Shown here: piece after piece, positions 4,023 to 34,964 of the stretch | Layout: each line of letters begins with the position of its first letter | How positions within the stretch are numbered: position 1 is the stretch's first letter | From: Ruminococcus sp. | GTDB taxonomy: Bacteria; Bacillota; Clostridia; Oscillospirales; Acutalibacteraceae | Reading direction: 5' to 3' | Length of the DNA stretch: 44,596 bases | Assembly: GCA_017405065.1 (NCBI GenBank) | Contig: JAFRBD010000159.1 | Span: forward strand, 1 to 44,596 | Notes under the pieces: generated by a model | What the model was told of the DNA's origin: nothing | Seen by the model: only the letters and a program-made list of their open reading frames with translations | The model's database searches: none | Position numbers and translations under genes: made by a program

Positions 4023-4042
4023 AGTATCAAATCCTTATCAAT

Positions 4043-4184
4043 TAGGAATTTGGAATGAGGAATGAGGAATTATGGGAAACGCGTGACCGCGTTTTGATTT
4101 GTATTACGTTTCATTCTCACATATCAATCGGGTGCGGGCGAAGTCCGCCATCGATTCCTAATTCCTAACTCCTAATTCCTCATT
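4043..4184. repeat. Heptamer-bounded intergenic element (copy 1)
   Basis: The left tract at 4045-4072 is four 7-nt units (GGAATTT GGAATGA GGAATGA in a row, then GGAATTA). The right tract at 4154-4181 is the inverted form (ATTCCTA ATTCCTA ACTCCTA ATTCCTC as consecutive units). Between them are a GGGAAA-hairpin-TTTTGATT module (4074-4100) and a GGGTGCGGGC..CCGCC stem near 4130-4150. The right edge directly abuts the stop codon of the aminotransferase gene. Confidence 0.7.
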
Positions 4185-9428: not shown

Positions 9429-9803
9429 ATGCTGACTAAAAGTGAGAAACAGATCATGGACCTGCTGTGGAGCGTCAACGAACCGCTGTCGTGTACGGAG
9501 ATCGTAGAGATGTCCGGCGAAAAGACATGGAAGGACAGCTACGTCCATTCCCTGATCAAGTCCCTGATGAAGAAGGACATGGTGGAGATCGCCGCATTCG
9601 AGCTGATCTCCCGCAGCTACGCGCGTAAGTTCATGCCCAAACTGAACAAGGAACAGTACTGCCTGCGCGAATACTTGGCTGAGTCTCCGGAAAACAGCTT
9701 CCTGAAGCTGTTCACCGCTTACGCGGAAAACTATGACGACGCGGAAGAAATGAAGCAGATCGAGGCTGTTATCAAGCAATGGAAAAAATCGCATAACGCA
9801 TAA
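9429..9803 (+). CDS. BlaI/MecI/CopY family transcriptional repressor
   Basis: A 124-residue DNA-binding protein. The N-terminal winged helix (LTKSEKQIMDLLWSVNEPLS, then TEIVEMSG and YVHSLIKSLMKKDMVEI) is typical of BlaI/MecI/CopY repressors, which dimerise through a short C-terminal helical region (about residues 80-124 here). Classic members are inactivated by a BlaR1 protease or by copper. No BlaR1-like membrane protease and no beta-lactamase lies nearby, so this is an orphan regulator with an unknown signal. AAAGAGGT precedes the ATG and a terminator follows, so the gene is a single-gene unit. Confidence 0.8.
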   Translation: MLTKSEKQIMDLLWSVNEPLSCTEIVEMSGEKTWKDSYVHSLIKSLMKKDMVEIAAFELISRSYARKFMPKLNKEQYCLREYLAESPENSFLKLFTAYAENYDDAEEMKQIEAVIKQWKKSHNA

Positions 9804-9839
9804 TTTGTTTTTTGAGCACAACATAACAGATATACGAAA

Positions 9840-9867
9840 GGGAGGAGCGTTCGCTCCTCCCTTTTTT
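9840..9867 (+). terminator. Terminator of the BlaI-like gene
   Basis: GGGAGGAGCG (9840-9849) and CGCTCCTCCC (9852-9861) form a stem followed by six T. In sequence it resembles the GGGAGGAGC..GCTCCTCCC palindromic repeats scattered in the window, so the terminator may derive from one. Confidence 0.85.
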
Positions 9868-11056: not shown

Positions 11057-11080
11057 ATGCTCCTCCTTTCTGTTAATTAG

Positions 11081-11194
11081 GAATTGGGAGTTAGGAATTA
11101 GGAATTAATGGCGGGACACCCGCACCCGAATGAATAGGAATCCAAAATGCGCAAGCATTTCCCTTAATTCCTCATTCCTCATTTCTAATTCCTA
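11081..11194. repeat. Heptamer-bounded intergenic element (copy 2)
   Basis: Left units at 11081-11107 (GAATTGG GAGTTAG, then GAATTAG, GAATTA) and inverted right units at 11167-11194 (ATTCCTC ATTCCTC, then ATTTCTA, ATTCCTA). The interior holds AATGGCGGGACACCCGCACC and an ATGC..GCAT hairpin ending in TTTCCC, the reverse complement of the modules of copies 1 and 6. The right edge begins within 3 nt of the MBOAT stop codon. Confidence 0.7.
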
Positions 11195-11196
11195 AT

Positions 11197-12591
11197 TTAA
11201 AAACGGAAGTACAAAAACGGATTATAGCTCTGGGATACCAGCAGCGAGGTAGCGATACCCAATACCGTGCAGCAGAACAGCGCTTTGAGCAGCGGAGCCG
11301 CCTTGGTGTTCTCGATCTTACGGTAGAGGTTCGTCATCACGGGCGTGGAGGCAAACGCCGCTGCCAGCAGCATCGGCAGATAGGAAAGCGCCAGCGCGCC
11401 GGCGTCCGCGGTGATCACCGAGCCGCCGAAGCGGAACATCGAGGCAAAGAACGCGCCCATCTCGGAAAGATCGCTGAAGTAGAACAGCACCCATCCGAGG
11501 ATGATAAAGAACAGCGCGTAGATATGCTGTACCGCCGCGGGAGCTTTATCCAGCCATTTTTTCAGGATGAACTTTTCGAGCACCAGCAGCGCGCCGAAAT
11601 ACAGACCCCAGAAGATGAAGTTGAAGTCCGCGCCGTGCCAGAAGCCGGTCAGGAACCAGACGATCAAAAGGTTCAATATCTGCCGCGGAACGCCCTTGCG
11701 GTTACCGCCCAGCGGGATATAGACATACTCGCGGAACCATGTGCCGAGCGAGATATGCCAGCGGCGCCAGAACTCTGTGATGCTCTTGGAAATATAGGGA
11801 TAATTGAAGTTTTTCAGGAATTCAAAGCCGAACATGTTGCCCAGACCGCACGCCATGTCCGAATAGCCGGAAAAGTCGAAATAGATCTGGAAGGTGTAGG
11901 CGATGATGCCGACCCACGAGCCCAGCCAGCCCATCTCCCCCGTCGCACGGATGCTGTCCCACAAGGCGCCCATCTGGTTGGCGATCAGCACCTTTTTGGC
12001 AAGCCCTACGCAGAAGACGCACACGCCCTTGGTGAACTGGTCGAGCGTTTCGCGCCGGTGATCGAGCTGATAGGCGACGTCCTTATAGCGGACGATCGGG
12101 CCCGCGATCAGCTGCGGAAACAGCGAGACGTAGGTGCCGAAGGTGATGATGTTCTTCTGCACAGGCGCGTCGCCGCGATAGACGTCGATCGAGTAGGACA
12201 TCGTCTGGAAGGTGTAGAAGCTGATGCCGATGGGCAGGGGTATCTTCAGACTCGGGATGTTCAGGAACGGCAGATAGCTGAGCGTATCGGCGAGGAAGCC
12301 CGCGTACTTGAAGAAGCCCAAAAGACTGAGGTTGATGCAAACTGACAGAACGAGAAAGACCTTCGCCTTCTTCTTGTTCGTCTCGCGGTATTTGTTGATA
12401 AACCAGCCGCAGGTATAGTCCACGATGGTGGAGAAGATCATCAAGGTGACATATACCGGCTCGCCCCAGCCGTAGAAAACGAGGTTGACGAGAAAAAGCA
12501 GGAGGTTGCGCCAGCGGCGCGGGCATATGTAATAGAGTATCAGCACGATCGGCAGATACAGAAACAGGAATAGTAACGATGAGAATACCAT
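11197..12591 (-). CDS. MBOAT family O-acyltransferase (AlgI/DltB-like)
   Basis: A 464-residue integral membrane protein with about ten hydrophobic helices. Family marks are YISKSITEFWRRWHISLGTW, REYVYIPLGGNRKG and FLTGFWHGADFNFIFWGLYF, whose His is the conserved catalytic histidine. It moves an acyl group, usually acetate, across the membrane onto an extracellular acceptor such as a polysaccharide. The next gene in the same direction encodes a DHHW protein, the usual partner, so this is probably an acetylation module like AlgI-AlgJ rather than DltB (no dltA/C/D nearby). A GGAGG-type site precedes ATG 12591. Confidence 0.92.
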   Translation of the reverse strand: MVFSSLLFLFLYLPIVLILYYICPRRWRNLLLFLVNLVFYGWGEPVYVTLMIFSTIVDYTCGWFINKYRETNKKKAKVFLVLSVCINLSLLGFFKYAGFLADTLSYLPFLNIPSLKIPLPIGISFYTFQTMSYSIDVYRGDAPVQKNIITFGTYVSLFPQLIAGPIVRYKDVAYQLDHRRETLDQFTKGVCVFCVGLAKKVLIANQMGALWDSIRATGEMGWLGSWVGIIAYTFQIYFDFSGYSDMACGLGNMFGFEFLKNFNYPYISKSITEFWRRWHISLGTWFREYVYIPLGGNRKGVPRQILNLLIVWFLTGFWHGADFNFIFWGLYFGALLVLEKFILKKWLDKAPAAVQHIYALFFIILGWVLFYFSDLSEMGAFFASMFRFGGSVITADAGALALSYLPMLLAAAFASTPVMTNLYRKIENTKAAPLLKALFCCTVLGIATSLLVSQSYNPFLYFRF

Positions 12592-12617
12592 ATGCGAACC
12601 TCCTTTCGGATAAATTA

Positions 12618-13061
12618 GGAATTAGGAATTAGGAATGAGAAGTGTGGAATTATTTCGTTTCCTCATCGGTCATCTTTTCTCTGGTCGTTTTTGTGATTGA
12701 CGATAACAGTTTCTTGAGTTCTGAGCAATCTCTCGATATGGATTGATACTCCTGTTCACTCAGGAACGATGTTTCAAAAAGGATATCAAGCCAATACTGT
12801 GTTTCTGCACACTCTTTGAAAGCGACATACAGCTTGGATAAAAAGTCTTTCTCACTGATCGCACAACCGGACTCCGCAACATTAGCGCCAATGCTTGTAC
12901 CACAGCGTAACAGTTGTTTTGACATCACATATTCTTTTTTATCTTCTTTGATATATCGATATAGATTCACAATACGCACAGCAAATCTTTTACTTTTATC
13001 GTAAATCGTATTTTCACTCATGTGTGTACCTTAGGAATTAAGTAATTCCTAATTCCTCATT
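12618..13061 (-). mobile_element. Candidate IVP-encoding element bounded by inverted heptamer arrays
   Basis: The four-helix-bundle gene is enclosed by heptamer tracts in opposite orientation: GGAATTA GGAATTA, GGAATGA at 12618-12638 and their complements ATTCCTA, ATTCCTC at 13045-13058. A 14-bp stretch at 12618-12631 is the exact complement of 13043-13056. The right side also holds a perfect 10-bp hairpin (TTAGGAATTA / TAATTCCTAA, 13031-13052). The unit is about 445 bp and starts within a few bases of the zinc-ribbon gene's stop codon. It is the only coding member of the repeat family in the window. Mobility is inferred, not shown. Confidence 0.5.
12650..13021 (-). CDS. Four-helix-bundle protein (23S rRNA IVS-protein family)
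   Basis: A 123-residue, almost all-helical protein of the S23/IVP family (related to bAvd of diversity-generating retroelements). Family marks are KSKRFAVRIVNLYRYI in helix 1, LLRCGTSIGANVAESGCAIS with the GTSIGAN..E turn, DFLSKLYVAFKECAETQYWL in helix 3, and the closing SELKKLLSSITKTT. Members form basic pentameric barrels in known structures; their cellular role is unclear. Many lie inside intervening sequences of 23S rRNA genes, but here the gene is intergenic. Codon use is more AT-rich than the neighbours, consistent with transfer. It lies inside inverted heptamer arrays. Confidence 0.85.
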   Translation of the reverse strand: MSENTIYDKSKRFAVRIVNLYRYIKEDKKEYVMSKQLLRCGTSIGANVAESGCAISEKDFLSKLYVAFKECAETQYWLDILFETSFLSEQEYQSISRDCSELKKLLSSITKTTREKMTDEETK

Positions 13062-13512
13062 AAAATAAGATGTTCTTCTTAATGTCCGCGCCGCAGCGGG
13101 GGCAGTGGACGCTTTGTACGCCGGTGCGCTTTTTCAGCCTGAGCTGCGCCTTGCAGTAGGGACAGCGCAGGTAACGGTGGGTCTTGAAATCCCGCACCTT
13201 CATGTACTGGCGCTTGAAGAAATCCGCCACAGCCGTATAGATGCTGACAAAGCGGTTGTTTTCATACATGCGTTTCGTGATATTCTTGGATAAGGAGCGG
13301 AACACCGCCAGCGCGCCGATCAGCAGGATCACGATCGCGAGGATCGGACTGCGCACAAAGAGGTTGACGAAATAGAGAACCGCCGCGACGATCCAGATAA
13401 ACAGATTCAATTTATCGTGTCCGTAGCGGCCCTGCATAAACTGAGCCGCTTTATTCAGAAAATTACGCAAAAAATCACCGTAGCCATTATATTGGGTGGG
13501 CGCTGCCCACAT
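13060..13512 (-). CDS. Membrane protein with C-terminal zinc ribbon, function unknown
   Basis: Up to 150 residues. An amphipathic N-terminal part ends in MQGRYGHDKLN, followed by two adjacent hydrophobic stretches (about 38-55 and 58-72), a basic linker, and a zinc ribbon at the C-terminus (CPYCKAQLRL ... VHCPRCGAD, two CxxC pairs). Similar small two-helix zinc-ribbon proteins are common in Clostridia and have no known function. The ATG at 13512 has no ribosome binding site; a later start at about residue 16 (TTG, with GGTGA upstream) is possible. A TATAAT lies just inside the reading frame near 13486, which also hints at a later start. Confidence 0.6.
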   Translation of the reverse strand: MWAAPTQYNGYGDFLRNFLNKAAQFMQGRYGHDKLNLFIWIVAAVLYFVNLFVRSPILAIVILLIGALAVFRSLSKNITKRMYENNRFVSIYTAVADFFKRQYMKVRDFKTHRYLRCPYCKAQLRLKKRTGVQSVHCPRCGADIKKNILF

Positions 13513-17953: not shown

Positions 17954-17995
17954 AACTAAGAACTTAGAAATAAGAAATAAGAACTATGAACTCAG
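17954..17995. repeat. Six-unit heptamer array, AACTAAG version
   Basis: Consecutive 7-nt units AACTAAG AACTTAG, AAATAAG AAATAAG, AACTATG AACTCAG. The period is exactly 7 and each unit keeps AA..(A/T).G. A small AGTAC..GTACT hairpin follows. No inverted partner tract was found before the next gene, so this is a lone tract in the leader of the PAP2 gene. Confidence 0.7.
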
Positions 17996-18087
17996 TACAA
18001 AGTACTAAGATCTGACTGTTAATTGAATCATAACCAACAAAAGATTCACAACCAACGGTTGCGAATGGAACGATAACGGAGCGAATC

Positions 18088-23643: not shown

Positions 23644-23791
23644 GGAACAGATAACAGATAACAGCTGCGGGAAATGCTTCGCATTTTAGATTCCTGTTAA
23701 ATCGGGAACAGCAGCTTTGCAGCCGAATAGATAAAACGGGCGCCGGCTTGCCCGCCCTTCGTTGTTCTCTATTCTCTTTTCTCTGTTCTCT
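23644..23791. repeat. Heptamer-bounded intergenic element, AGAACAG version
   Basis: Left units at 23644-23664 (GGAACAG ATAACAG, then ATAACAG). Inverted right units at 23764-23791 (GTTCTCT ATTCTCT, then TTTCTCT GTTCTCT). The interior starts with GGGAAATGCTTCGCATTTTA and GATTCCTG, close to the interior of the copy at 29891, and then GGGCGCCGGCTTGCCCGCCC, like the GCGGGC..GCCCGC stem of other copies. So the interior is shared although the terminal heptamer has a different sequence. Confidence 0.65.
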
Positions 23792-29332: not shown

Positions 29333-29890
29333 ATGAATCATTCAGGCACTGTCACGCTCGAAACCGAACGCCTGATCCTGCGGCGTTTCACGCCCGACGA
29401 CGCAGAGGATATGTACCGCAACTGGGCGGCGAGCGAAGAGGTCACGCGCTTCCTGACATGGGAGCCGTACAAAAGCATCGACGAAGTCAAAGGCTACATA
29501 CAATACTGTATCGATGAATATCAAAAGCCCGATAACTACAACTGGATCATCGAGTATAAGGAAGTCAAAGAGGTCATCGGAAGTATCAGCGTAATTCTGA
29601 TCCGCGAGGATATCGCCGCGTGTGAAGTCGGCTATTGTATGAGCGACCGCTTCTGGGGCAGGGGGATCATGCCCGAGGCTCTTTCGGAGGTGATTCGATT
29701 TCTGTTTGAAGAGGTCGGCATGAACCGCATCCAAGCGACCCACGACGCAAGGAATCCCAATTCGGGCAGAGTCATGGAAAAATGCGGTATGAAAGTTGAA
29801 GGCGTCATGCGGCAGGCAAGCAGGAATAATCAGGGGGTCTGTGATTCGGTTATGAGAGCGATATTGAAGGAAGAGAGCTTTTATAGTTAG
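29333..29890 (+). CDS. GNAT N-acetyltransferase (RimJ/RimL type)
   Basis: 185 residues. LETERLILRRFTPDDAEDMY is the RimJ/RimL-type start, VGYCMSDRFWGRGIMPEAL is motif A that binds acetyl-CoA, and THDARNPNSGRVMEKCGMKV is motif B. It transfers acetyl from acetyl-CoA to an amine on a protein or small molecule; the acceptor is unknown. GGGAGG is 7 nt before ATG 29333; ATG 29327 is too close to it. The stop codon TAG (29888-29890) lies within the first TTAG of the heptamer array. Confidence 0.88.
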   Translation: MNHSGTVTLETERLILRRFTPDDAEDMYRNWAASEEVTRFLTWEPYKSIDEVKGYIQYCIDEYQKPDNYNWIIEYKEVKEVIGSISVILIREDIAACEVGYCMSDRFWGRGIMPEALSEVIRFLFEEVGMNRIQATHDARNPNSGRVMEKCGMKVEGVMRQASRNNQGVCDSVMRAILKEESFYS

Positions 29891-30073
29891 GAATTAGGAA
29901 TGAGGAATGAGGAATTGTTGGAAATCCTTCGGATTTTTGATTCCTATATAAAACAGCAACGCTTGCAACCCACAAAAAAGAGTTGCAAGCGTTTTAATTT
30001 ATCTTTTATTATATAATTCAAAACGCATCAGCGTTTCCCGAAATTCCTAATTCCTAACTCCTAATTCCTCATT
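29891..30073. repeat. Heptamer-bounded intergenic element (copy 4) with internal terminator
   Basis: Left units GAATTAG GAATGAG, GAATGAG (29891-29911). Inverted right units ATTCCTA ATTCCTA, ACTCCTA, ATTCCTC (30043-30070). The interior has GGAAATCCTTCGGATTTTTG (from 29924), a terminator-like stem AACGCTTGCAAC/GTTGCAAGCGTT with TTT (29958-29995), and an inverted GGGAAACGCTGATGCGTTTT module at its right end. It fills the whole gap between two convergent genes and abuts both stop codons. Confidence 0.7.
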
Positions 30074-33782: not shown

Positions 33783-34934
33783 TTATAGCGCGTCGATGAT
33801 GACGTCCACCGCTTTTTCGAGCTGTTCCTGCGGGATGTTCAGCGGGGGGAGCAATCTCAGCTTTTCCTTGGCGGAGAGGCAGAGAACGCCGTTTGCCATA
33901 CAGGCGGCGAGGACTTCGGCAACGGGCTTTTTCGTTGTAATACCGATCATCAGTCCCATACCGCTGACGGTGAAGCCTGCCTCTTCGATCCGCTCTTTGA
34001 CATACTGTCCCTTGGCGGCGACCTGTGCCAAGAACGCGTCATCCATACGATCCAGCACCGAAACAGCGGCGGCGGCGCAGACGGGATTGCCGCCGAAGGT
34101 GGAGCCGTGGTCGCCGTAACCGAGGACGGAGCTGACCTTTTCGCTCATTAAGGTCGCGCCCATCGGCAGACCTGCCGCGAGACCCTTCGCGGTAGACACC
34201 ACGTCGGGCTGCACGCCGAAATGCATATAGGAATAGAGCTTGCCGGTGCGTCCGTTGCCGGTCTGTACCTCGTCGATCATAAAGACGAGGTCGTTCTCTT
34301 TGCAGATGCGATCGACCGCCTTGACAAAGTCCGCGTCGAGGGTATTGACGCCGCCCTCGCCCTGTACCGTTTCGATCAGGATACCGGCGACCTTGTTTTC
34401 GGCGACGAGCCTTTGCAGTCCTTCCGTATCGTTCGCGTCCGCGTAGAGGAAGCCCTCGGTCAGCGGGAGAAAATCATGGTGAAAATGCTCCTGACCCGTC
34501 GCCGCGAGGGTGGTCAGCGTACGACCGTGGAAGCTCTTGTTGAGCGTGATGATGTTGTAATAGTCGGCGCCTTTATGAGAAGCTGCATATTTGCGCGCGA
34601 CCTTGACGGCGCACTCGTTCGCCTCCGCGCCGGAATTGCTGAAAAAAACCTTATCCATCCCCGTACGGGTACAGAGGATCTGAGCCAGCTCAGCGCAGGG
34701 AGCGGTGTAGTACAGGTTGGAGGTATGCTGTAAGGTCTTCGCCTGATCGGCGACAGCCTGCGCCCAGACGGGATCGGCATAGCCAAAGGCGTTGACGCCG
34801 ATACCGGAGGTCATGTCGATATATTCCCTGCCGTTTTCGTCATAGCAAAGACAGCCTTTTCCTTTGACGATGGCAAGGTCAAAGCGCTTGTAGGTATGCG
34901 CGATATATTGTTCATCTGTTTTCTTGATGTTCAT
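33783..34934 (-). CDS. argD: Acetylornithine aminotransferase
   Basis: 383 residues. A PLP-dependent class III aminotransferase that converts N-acetylglutamate semialdehyde to N-acetylornithine. YIDMTSGIGVNAFGYADP, FFSNSGAEANECAVKVAR (phosphate-binding turn), FMIDEVQTGNGRTGKL and DVVSTAKGLAAGLPMGATL (Schiff-base Lys) are all present. The frame also opens at ATG 34946, but ATG 34934 has GGAG 6 nt upstream and gives the usual length. It lies between argB and argF on the same strand. Confidence 0.95.
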   Translation of the reverse strand: MNIKKTDEQYIAHTYKRFDLAIVKGKGCLCYDENGREYIDMTSGIGVNAFGYADPVWAQAVADQAKTLQHTSNLYYTAPCAELAQILCTRTGMDKVFFSNSGAEANECAVKVARKYAASHKGADYYNIITLNKSFHGRTLTTLAATGQEHFHHDFLPLTEGFLYADANDTEGLQRLVAENKVAGILIETVQGEGGVNTLDADFVKAVDRICKENDLVFMIDEVQTGNGRTGKLYSYMHFGVQPDVVSTAKGLAAGLPMGATLMSEKVSSVLGYGDHGSTFGGNPVCAAAAVSVLDRMDDAFLAQVAAKGQYVKERIEEAGFTVSGMGLMIGITTKKPVAEVLAACMANGVLCLSAKEKLRLLPPLNIPQEQLEKAVDVIIDAL

Positions 34935-34964
34935 AGTATGCTCCATTAGCGTTTGATGCTATTT

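Follow-up and report, generated by a model that had tools for sequence, protein, structure and literature searches.

The small gene at positions 12650 to 13021 of the window and the inverted heptamer arrays that enclose it are probably a selfish mobile element of about 0.45 kb, here called an IVP element, with IVP as its only gene and heptamer arrays as its ends. The window is the whole stretch of DNA analysed, 44,596 nucleotides, and constitutes an entire contig (C119) of a 2.52-Mb draft genome. The parts of the element are the following:

12613..13061, minus strand: the whole IVP element, inverted heptamer arms and IVP gene; present or absent at this site in relatives within the genus
12650..13021, minus strand: the IVP gene (23S_rRNA_IVP / four helix bundle protein), 123 amino acids; matches to PF05635, TIGR02436 and PDB 2rld
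13043..13061, minus strand: arm on the 5' side of the gene, with the heptamer AATTAGG/AATGAGG; shares 2 nt with the stop codon of the Zn-ribbon gene
12613..12636, minus strand: 3' arm relative to the gene, the same AATTAGG/AATGAGG heptamer, inverted
13031..13052, no strand assigned: 10-bp hairpin with a 2-nt loop, overlapping the 5' arm

The gene belongs to the 23S_rRNA_IVP family (PF05635 / TIGR02436), in agreement with an earlier note on this DNA that described a small AT-rich gene for a four-helix-bundle protein. It exceeds both curated cut-offs in the profile searches, with E 2.6e-28 and 98.8 bits against PF05635 (Pfam, cut-off 33.8) and E 8.5e-31 and 106.4 bits against TIGR02436 (NCBIfam, cut-off 24), and it matches PDB 2rld with E 1.1e-36. 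PF05635 is the only Pfam match, and NCBIfam adds two weaker subfamily models to TIGR02436. The GC content is 37.6% compared with 54.4% in the window. The oppositely oriented 7-nt tracts of the earlier note were located exactly, including a perfect 14-bp inverted match between 12618-12631 and 13043-13056. The 10-bp hairpin was also exact, but it overlaps the right arm instead of adjoining it. When the element is folded as RNA the arms form the outermost stem (z -1.97).

Period-7 runs with a score of at least 14 are found 11 times in the window compared with a mean of 0.0 in 20 first-order Markov simulations, and in the real window each of the remaining periods between 4 and 14 gives 0-2 runs. 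Chance or an assembly artefact as the source of the heptamer arms is rejected on the basis of these simulations together with the control windows, ORFs and positions described below.

The IVP gene is located between a Zn-ribbon-like gene (13060-13512, minus strand), for which profile matches are only weak, and an MBOAT gene (11197-12591, minus strand), and all three have the same orientation. No rRNA match was found anywhere in the window, and the element lies between protein genes and not inside a 23S rRNA gene. There is no transposase gene inside the element, which has a single ORF of the IVP family. It corresponds to the definition of an IVP gene between inverted arrays of one short unit. 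The host genome has three IVP genes. Two of them pass the paired-array test, and the third (L003) has, by eye, a clear 3' array and a weaker 5' array of a different heptamer. At 17954-18010 the window also has AACTAAG-type heptamers in tandem (8.1 copies, 76% matches), and no obvious partner arm goes with them.

The observation of an IVP gene between inverted 7-nt arrays is confirmed in other genomes. Period-7 runs (score at least 9) were found in 100 of 129 flanks of 65 IVP loci compared with 25 of 756 control windows taken within those loci, a count in which L031 and L037 are one gene included twice; identical genes are taken once in later counts. Runs of other periods from 4 to 13 occur in 0-4 of the 129 flanks, and the harmonic period 14 in 91. 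When 135 distinct IVP genes were compared (genes under 90 amino acids excluded, identity threshold 0.70), 88 had paired inverted arrays, with period 7 in 86, period 8 in one and period 10 in one. The same criterion was passed by 1 of 116 other ORFs in these loci, and random positions gave 0 of 381 with a slightly stricter criterion (identity 0.75, shorter flanks). The proposal in the earlier note that 7-nt tracts flank IVP genes more often than other genes is therefore borne out. The strict paired criterion was failed by 47 of the 135 genes, 22 of which were flagged by script as tag arrays, and some of the others have one arm or diverged arms by eye.

The named IVP records are distributed over Bacillota, Bacteroidota, Pseudomonadota, Elusimicrobiota, Cyanobacteriota, Spirochaetota, Chloroflexota and Candidatus Poribacteria. 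In seven of these eight phyla the script detected paired arms; the exception is Spirochaetota, whose single gene (L169) shows long arrays on inspection by eye. In Pseudomonadota, the phylum of the genome (G164) with the Alphaproteobacteria record L046, PF05635 matches were found in 62 of 398 sampled genomes. Paired arms are present in 21 of 47 Pseudomonadota IVP genes with the strict criterion and in 29 with a relaxed criterion for which the background is 3 of 381; 30 of the loci are the best-scoring matches, further loci were selected by us, and genes under 273 nt were excluded.

Several elements in the window have the same kind of arms but no gene. Beyond the IVP element there are four complete inverted pairs of the AATTAGG-type heptamer, one pair of another heptamer and one solo arm. 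Their cores were compared with R1, a model of two hairpins for which 8 of ten aligned armed cores were used, three of the eight from the window:

4040..4184, plus strand: non-coding relative with AATTAGG arms and a two-hairpin core at 4071-4153; fold z -3.58; R1 78.3 bits (R1 is partly built from this element)
11075..11197, minus strand: non-coding relative with AATTAGG arms and a short core; fold z -5.30; R1 62.1 bits (R1 is partly built from this element)
23646..23791, plus strand: non-coding relative whose core is of the same kind but whose heptamers are AACAGAT / GAGAACA; R1 68.2 bits (R1 is partly built from this element)
29887..30073, no strand assigned: non-coding relative between convergent genes, with a stop codon at each arm and, at each end, a hairpin of the first type; R1 29.8 bits
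41614..41803, plus strand: non-coding relative with AATGAGG arms; R1 48.9 bits
33750..33782, minus strand: solo heptamer arm, directly 3' of the stop codon of the gene at 33783-34946

The heptamer tracts thus bound several non-coding elements, as the earlier note had stated for this window, but AATTAGG is just one of many heptamers in the family. A search of the genome with R1 gave 48 places at E <= 1e-4 and 73 at E <= 0.01, some of them adjacent, as candidate non-coding relatives. The best 30 of the 73 places were examined for arms, heptamers and strand, with usable neighbours at 20. Paired period-7 arms were found by script in 25 of these 30. The arms are mostly of the AATTAGG type, and the same kind of core is also found with AACAGAT, GTGAACG or GGTTAAC-type arms. 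Three cores that are 94-99% identical stand at different sites, which is a sign of recent spread of the non-coding elements. In the Endomicrobium locus L048, several non-coding heptamer elements are found in a row beside an IVP element.

The shared arms support that the non-coding elements are related to the IVP element. A further link by hairpin remnants is weak: R1 matches in the IVP elements L001, L106 and L121 have E 0.01-0.05, and equally weak matches occur elsewhere in the window (e.g. 9777-9864, E 0.006), so that this link rests mainly on inspection by eye. The coding form, considered by the earlier note as the parent of the short derivatives, may be that parent. In 60 genomes of the genus, compared for a possible dependence of the cores on an IVP gene in the same genome, the core type was found in 14 of 42 IVP-positive and in 2 of 18 IVP-negative genomes. 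The latter two, both incomplete, have 11 and 15 non-coding cores, and 28 of the 42 IVP-positive genomes lack the core type.

In comparisons of occupied and empty sites, the gene together with its two arms acts as a single unit. The spacer between the MBOAT and Zn-ribbon genes is readable in 27 of 30 related loci, the other three lacking one flank. An IVP element with arms is present in 4 of the 27, and 6 have a gap of just 35-69 bp. The remaining spacers contain short non-coding heptamer elements, some with other heptamers, and other palindromic inserts; the insert in L072 is 1062 bp. Palindromic inserts without heptamer arrays were seen in this spacer in L069, L077 and L093. A gene for a cytosine methyltransferase is undivided in three Nostoc plasmids (L212-L214, 759-765 bp), whereas in L170, L172 and L217 an IVP element is located within that gene, the middle part of which is lost. 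At the junction of cas1 and cas2 the genes are 2 bp apart or overlap in L216 and L218, whereas in L176 and L215 an IVP element stands between them, in antisense to cas1 and cas2. Gene and arms are thus gained or lost jointly at all three sites, as expected from the comparison of empty and occupied sites suggested in the earlier note. No clean target-site duplication was read at the sites compared, where flanks between species are highly diverged.

These comparisons also bear on a reading without mobility, in which heptamer palindromes would be generated by replication slippage and hairpin-templated repair while IVP genes tolerate them or fall into them. Arm length differs on one side only in close pairs such as L004/L007 and L010/L100, and relatives have non-coding arrays of other heptamers at the same intergenic site, both of which speak for this reading. 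Against it stand the scarcity of paired arrays at other ORFs, a gene with arms inside a methyltransferase gene that is undivided in relatives and nearly identical non-coding cores at different sites. This explanation is disfavoured and considered very improbable.

In 71 of 86 period-7 elements, a sense ORF with 80 codons or more lies upstream and ends at most 150 nt before the 5' arm, or inside it. In these the 5' arm starts at a median of 2 nt past the stop codon, and in 49 of the 71 it starts at most 5 nt past the stop codon or includes it. Most arms start right at an upstream stop codon, where an insertion would do little harm. The IVP gene is in sense with both neighbours in 84 of 144 cases and antisense to both in 4, the rest being mixed or having a neighbour that was not called.

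Such a sense bias could point to an element acting at the RNA level, where the arms form a long RNA stem that is processed by a nuclease (RNase III or others) as in the intervening sequences (IVSs) of 23S rRNA, IVP binds RNA and insertion takes place through an RNA intermediate. The outermost stem formed by the arms in the folded window element is in line with this, and a passage in PMC4990558 describes termini of the Coxiella IVS that form a 28-bp stem cut by RNase III. However, the non-coding elements have no strand preference, with 10 of 20 having co-directional neighbours. They need no expression, and the bias of the IVP genes therefore looks like selection on coding copies and is most likely the retention of copies transcribed from the host, not RNA-directed insertion. 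RNA-directed insertion in the sense orientation is unsupported for the same reason. Pairing in full register also does not seem to be selected, since the order of unit variants is not mirrored between the arms (57 elements, mean percentile 0.52, p 0.42). An RNA-level element is regarded as unlikely.

The heptamer varies among IVP elements, with TTAGTGG, AGTAGTC, AATTGAA, AATGCGC, CAATTCG and TAGGCAG as examples, but the two arms of one element agree. The mean identity between the 5' arm and the reverse complement of its own 3' arm is 0.895 in 86 elements, compared with 0.599 for arms of other elements and 0.508 for the direct orientation. Because unit order is not mirrored, the two arms appear to share a vocabulary and not to be copies of each other. 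The lengths of the 5' and 3' arms are also only weakly correlated (rho 0.17, p 0.11). Arms as exact mutual copies, or strict selection for stem pairing, are not supported by unit order and lengths.

Heptamer similarity tracks IVP protein identity (Mantel r 0.38, p 0.001). There is also a second type of repeat, with a short constant tag and a small variable hairpin, for example with the tags AACTTCAT and AATATCACT. In these tag arrays the constant tag is 6-9 nt and the repeat units are about 20-25 nt, in place of heptamers, and an inverted tag is also present on the other side in 5 of 23 rows. The 135 rows were labelled by script as A (88), B (22) or none (25), and 18 of them were relabelled by eye before the tree was built: 14 became A, of which 11 had been none and 3 had been B, and 4 that had been none became B. 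With these labels the tag-array type comprises 23 of 135 rows and exactly one IVP clade (support 100/98), but class B is not one clade without the changes from B to A in L017, L053 and L169, where the "tags" are short tandem arrays. The tag-array genes are:

L107, L109, L113-L120, L122, L123, L125, L126, L128, L132, L134, L135, L023, L025, L026, L108, L181: tag-array IVP genes

Alphaproteobacteria rows group with Clostridia rows in the IVP tree, and related IVPs thus span phyla. The gene is under purifying selection, with a median dN/dS of 0.09 in the 40 of 90 pairs that had usable dS, the pairs being non-independent.

This co-evolution of gene and repeats supports that IVP recognises its own arms; for the model of the earlier note, in which IVP would act on the heptamer ends, the evidence is evolutionary. 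In the alternative, IVP is an accessory or passenger protein that only modulates the process, and an outside recombinase, such as a transposase of an IS or another kind, recognises and moves the arms. The lack of a known catalytic domain in IVP (Pfam, NCBIfam) is compatible with an outside enzyme. No partner gene was common to the annotated plasmid contexts read, a comparison that was not systematic, and restriction and methylase genes were frequent there. It is difficult to explain with a shared outside enzyme that one array type corresponds to one IVP clade and that heptamers follow IVP identity, and the same anatomy occurs in several phyla. IVP as an accessory protein is thus rather unlikely, even if somewhat easier to accept than an element acting through RNA. 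The accessory alternative and the preferred reading overlap in that both leave the chemistry to another enzyme.

In the preferred reading, a mobile element with IVP as its only gene, the IVP protein, whose solved relatives are pentameric, would bind the arms, perhaps with one subunit per heptamer, and might bring the two ends of the element together. The strands would be cut and joined by host enzymes, given that IVP has no catalytic domain of its own that is known, and the non-coding elements could be mobilised in trans. Coding copies would persist chiefly at sites where they are read in sense as part of a transcript from the host. Arm length has a median of 31 nt and lies between 28 and 35 nt in 58% of 172 arms, which corresponds to about five heptamer cores. 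The solved family structures 2rld and 2gsc have 5 chains each, and a Xanthomonas protein of the family is described as a homopentamer in a section of PMC4990558. Five heptamers per arm would match five IVP subunits, so far a numerical coincidence. In a single case, Nostoc L217, both arms are one heptamer shorter than in the close relatives L170/L172 (26 compared with 33 nt each).

The protein family of the window element is the same as in the 23S rRNA IVSs with an S23p/IVP ORF in Leptospira and Coxiella. These IVSs have the ORF in a loop of complementary ends and are labelled selfish elements in the part of PMC4990558 that deals with them; in the same part, Coxiella is described as having terminal inverted repeats and tandem heptameric repeats 5' of the S23p gene, the number of which varies by strain. 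Complementary ends around the IVP ORF are also present in the window element. The earlier note regarded the element as distinct from the IVSs, a separation that the arms do not support. One IVP gene in the Pseudomonadota sample (L274) lies inside a 23S rRNA gene (RF02541, 1278.6 bits), and L275 has the same flanks. By eye, the arms of L274 are inverted heptamers of the TCAGGAA/TCAGGGA type, the same kind of arm, although they pass only the relaxed criterion in the script. L274 was the only locus with rRNA among 40 loci of the sample that were searched with Rfam. Differences do exist: known IVSs are defined by their insertion in rRNA, whereas the elements described here are located just past stop codons, within operons or within a protein gene, and they vary in heptamer and have many-copy non-coding relatives.

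Other systems share parts of this structure. REPIN/RAYT systems have one or a few coding genes and many short non-coding palindromic relatives per genome, and RAYT is an HUH Y1 transposase. The likeness lies in few coding genes with many short non-coding relatives in one genome. In contrast, IVP elements end in tandem heptamer arrays and IVP matches PF05635/TIGR02436; no HUH Y1 transposase domain was found in the window IVP, for which Pfam gives PF05635 only. MITEs are likewise short non-coding elements with inverted repeats in many copies, but no parent transposase was found here, and the ends are tandem arrays that vary among elements around a like core. Avd, the accessory protein of diversity-generating retroelements, has a fold homologous to IVP according to an excerpt of PMC10053308. 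No reverse transcriptase was annotated beside IVP in the plasmid loci read.

Intergenic 7-nt arrays like the arms described here are found as GGGAATC in Xanthomonas, GGGGA(C/T)T in Nostoc, STRRs in cyanobacteria and TAACTGA in Beggiatoaceae. For GGGAATC, an extract of PMC4692102 gives 70 and 75 inverted convergent pairs in two genomes. Arrays of three perfect GGGAATC units are present in 3 of the 398 sampled Pseudomonadota genomes. An IVP match was found in 2 of these 3 compared with 62 of 398 overall, and both IVP genes, one of them degraded, have inverted arms of GGGAATC or the GGGATTC type. A connection of the TAACTGA and STRR arrays to IVP is a lead only. Among the matches listed for the open-access literature, represented by partial texts, no link between heptameric repeats outside rRNA and an IVP gene was found; the passages of PMC4679880, PMC6749651, PMC11270868, PMC10910872, PMC4748335, PMC2670836, PMC4853749, PMC3936711, PMC10053308 and PMC4692102 do not tie such repeats to IVP. 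A search of the open-access literature for TIGR02436 found no paper.

Because the IVS of L274 and the Xanthomonas-like GGGAATC repeats share the anatomy of IVP elements, the 23S IVSs seem to represent one instance of a more extensive family of mobile elements. The IVSs were already known and already called selfish, and IVP elements would thus extend a known kind in which the 23S IVS is the special case. It is possible, as a tentative generalisation, that IVP elements constitute a widespread class of mobile elements in bacteria, without their own recombinase, in which a pentamer reads about five heptamers at each end in a lineage-specific heptamer code and moves the element itself and its non-coding copies. 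Its members would be the 23S IVSs, those IVP genes that are classed as CRISPR-associated, and the so far unexplained heptameric repeats known from Xanthomonas and from cyanobacteria. In cas loci, 18 IVP genes are reported in the section of PMC3936711 that concerns them. In this view these genes would be insertions and not immune functions, and IVP elements would be a simple explanation for their being counted there. Such a reading would give a home to a protein family of unknown function described in the 1990s, place the 23S IVSs, so far seen as oddities, in one niche of a larger mobile family and explain abundant heptameric repeats that have been reported without a cause. It also raises a directly testable question, whether the IVP pentamer reads its own heptamer arms.

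Genes for a DNA methylase or for restriction are often found beside the IVP genes on the plasmids read (L166, L167, L170, L174 and L178). In the Monoglobus pectinilyticus plasmid (L166), an IVP element at 1430-1897 separates hsdS from hsdR in a type I restriction system; its IVP gene is split into two ORFs, and the annotation lists no gene there. Recurrent positions are also seen in the Pseudomonadota sample. The elements in L241, L242 and L278 are next to what we take to be a nuoD-like gene, a recurrent operon position, those in L261 and L262 are between genes that are presumably accB- and accC-like, and those in L226 and L232 are near genes assumed to be sugar-nucleotide genes.
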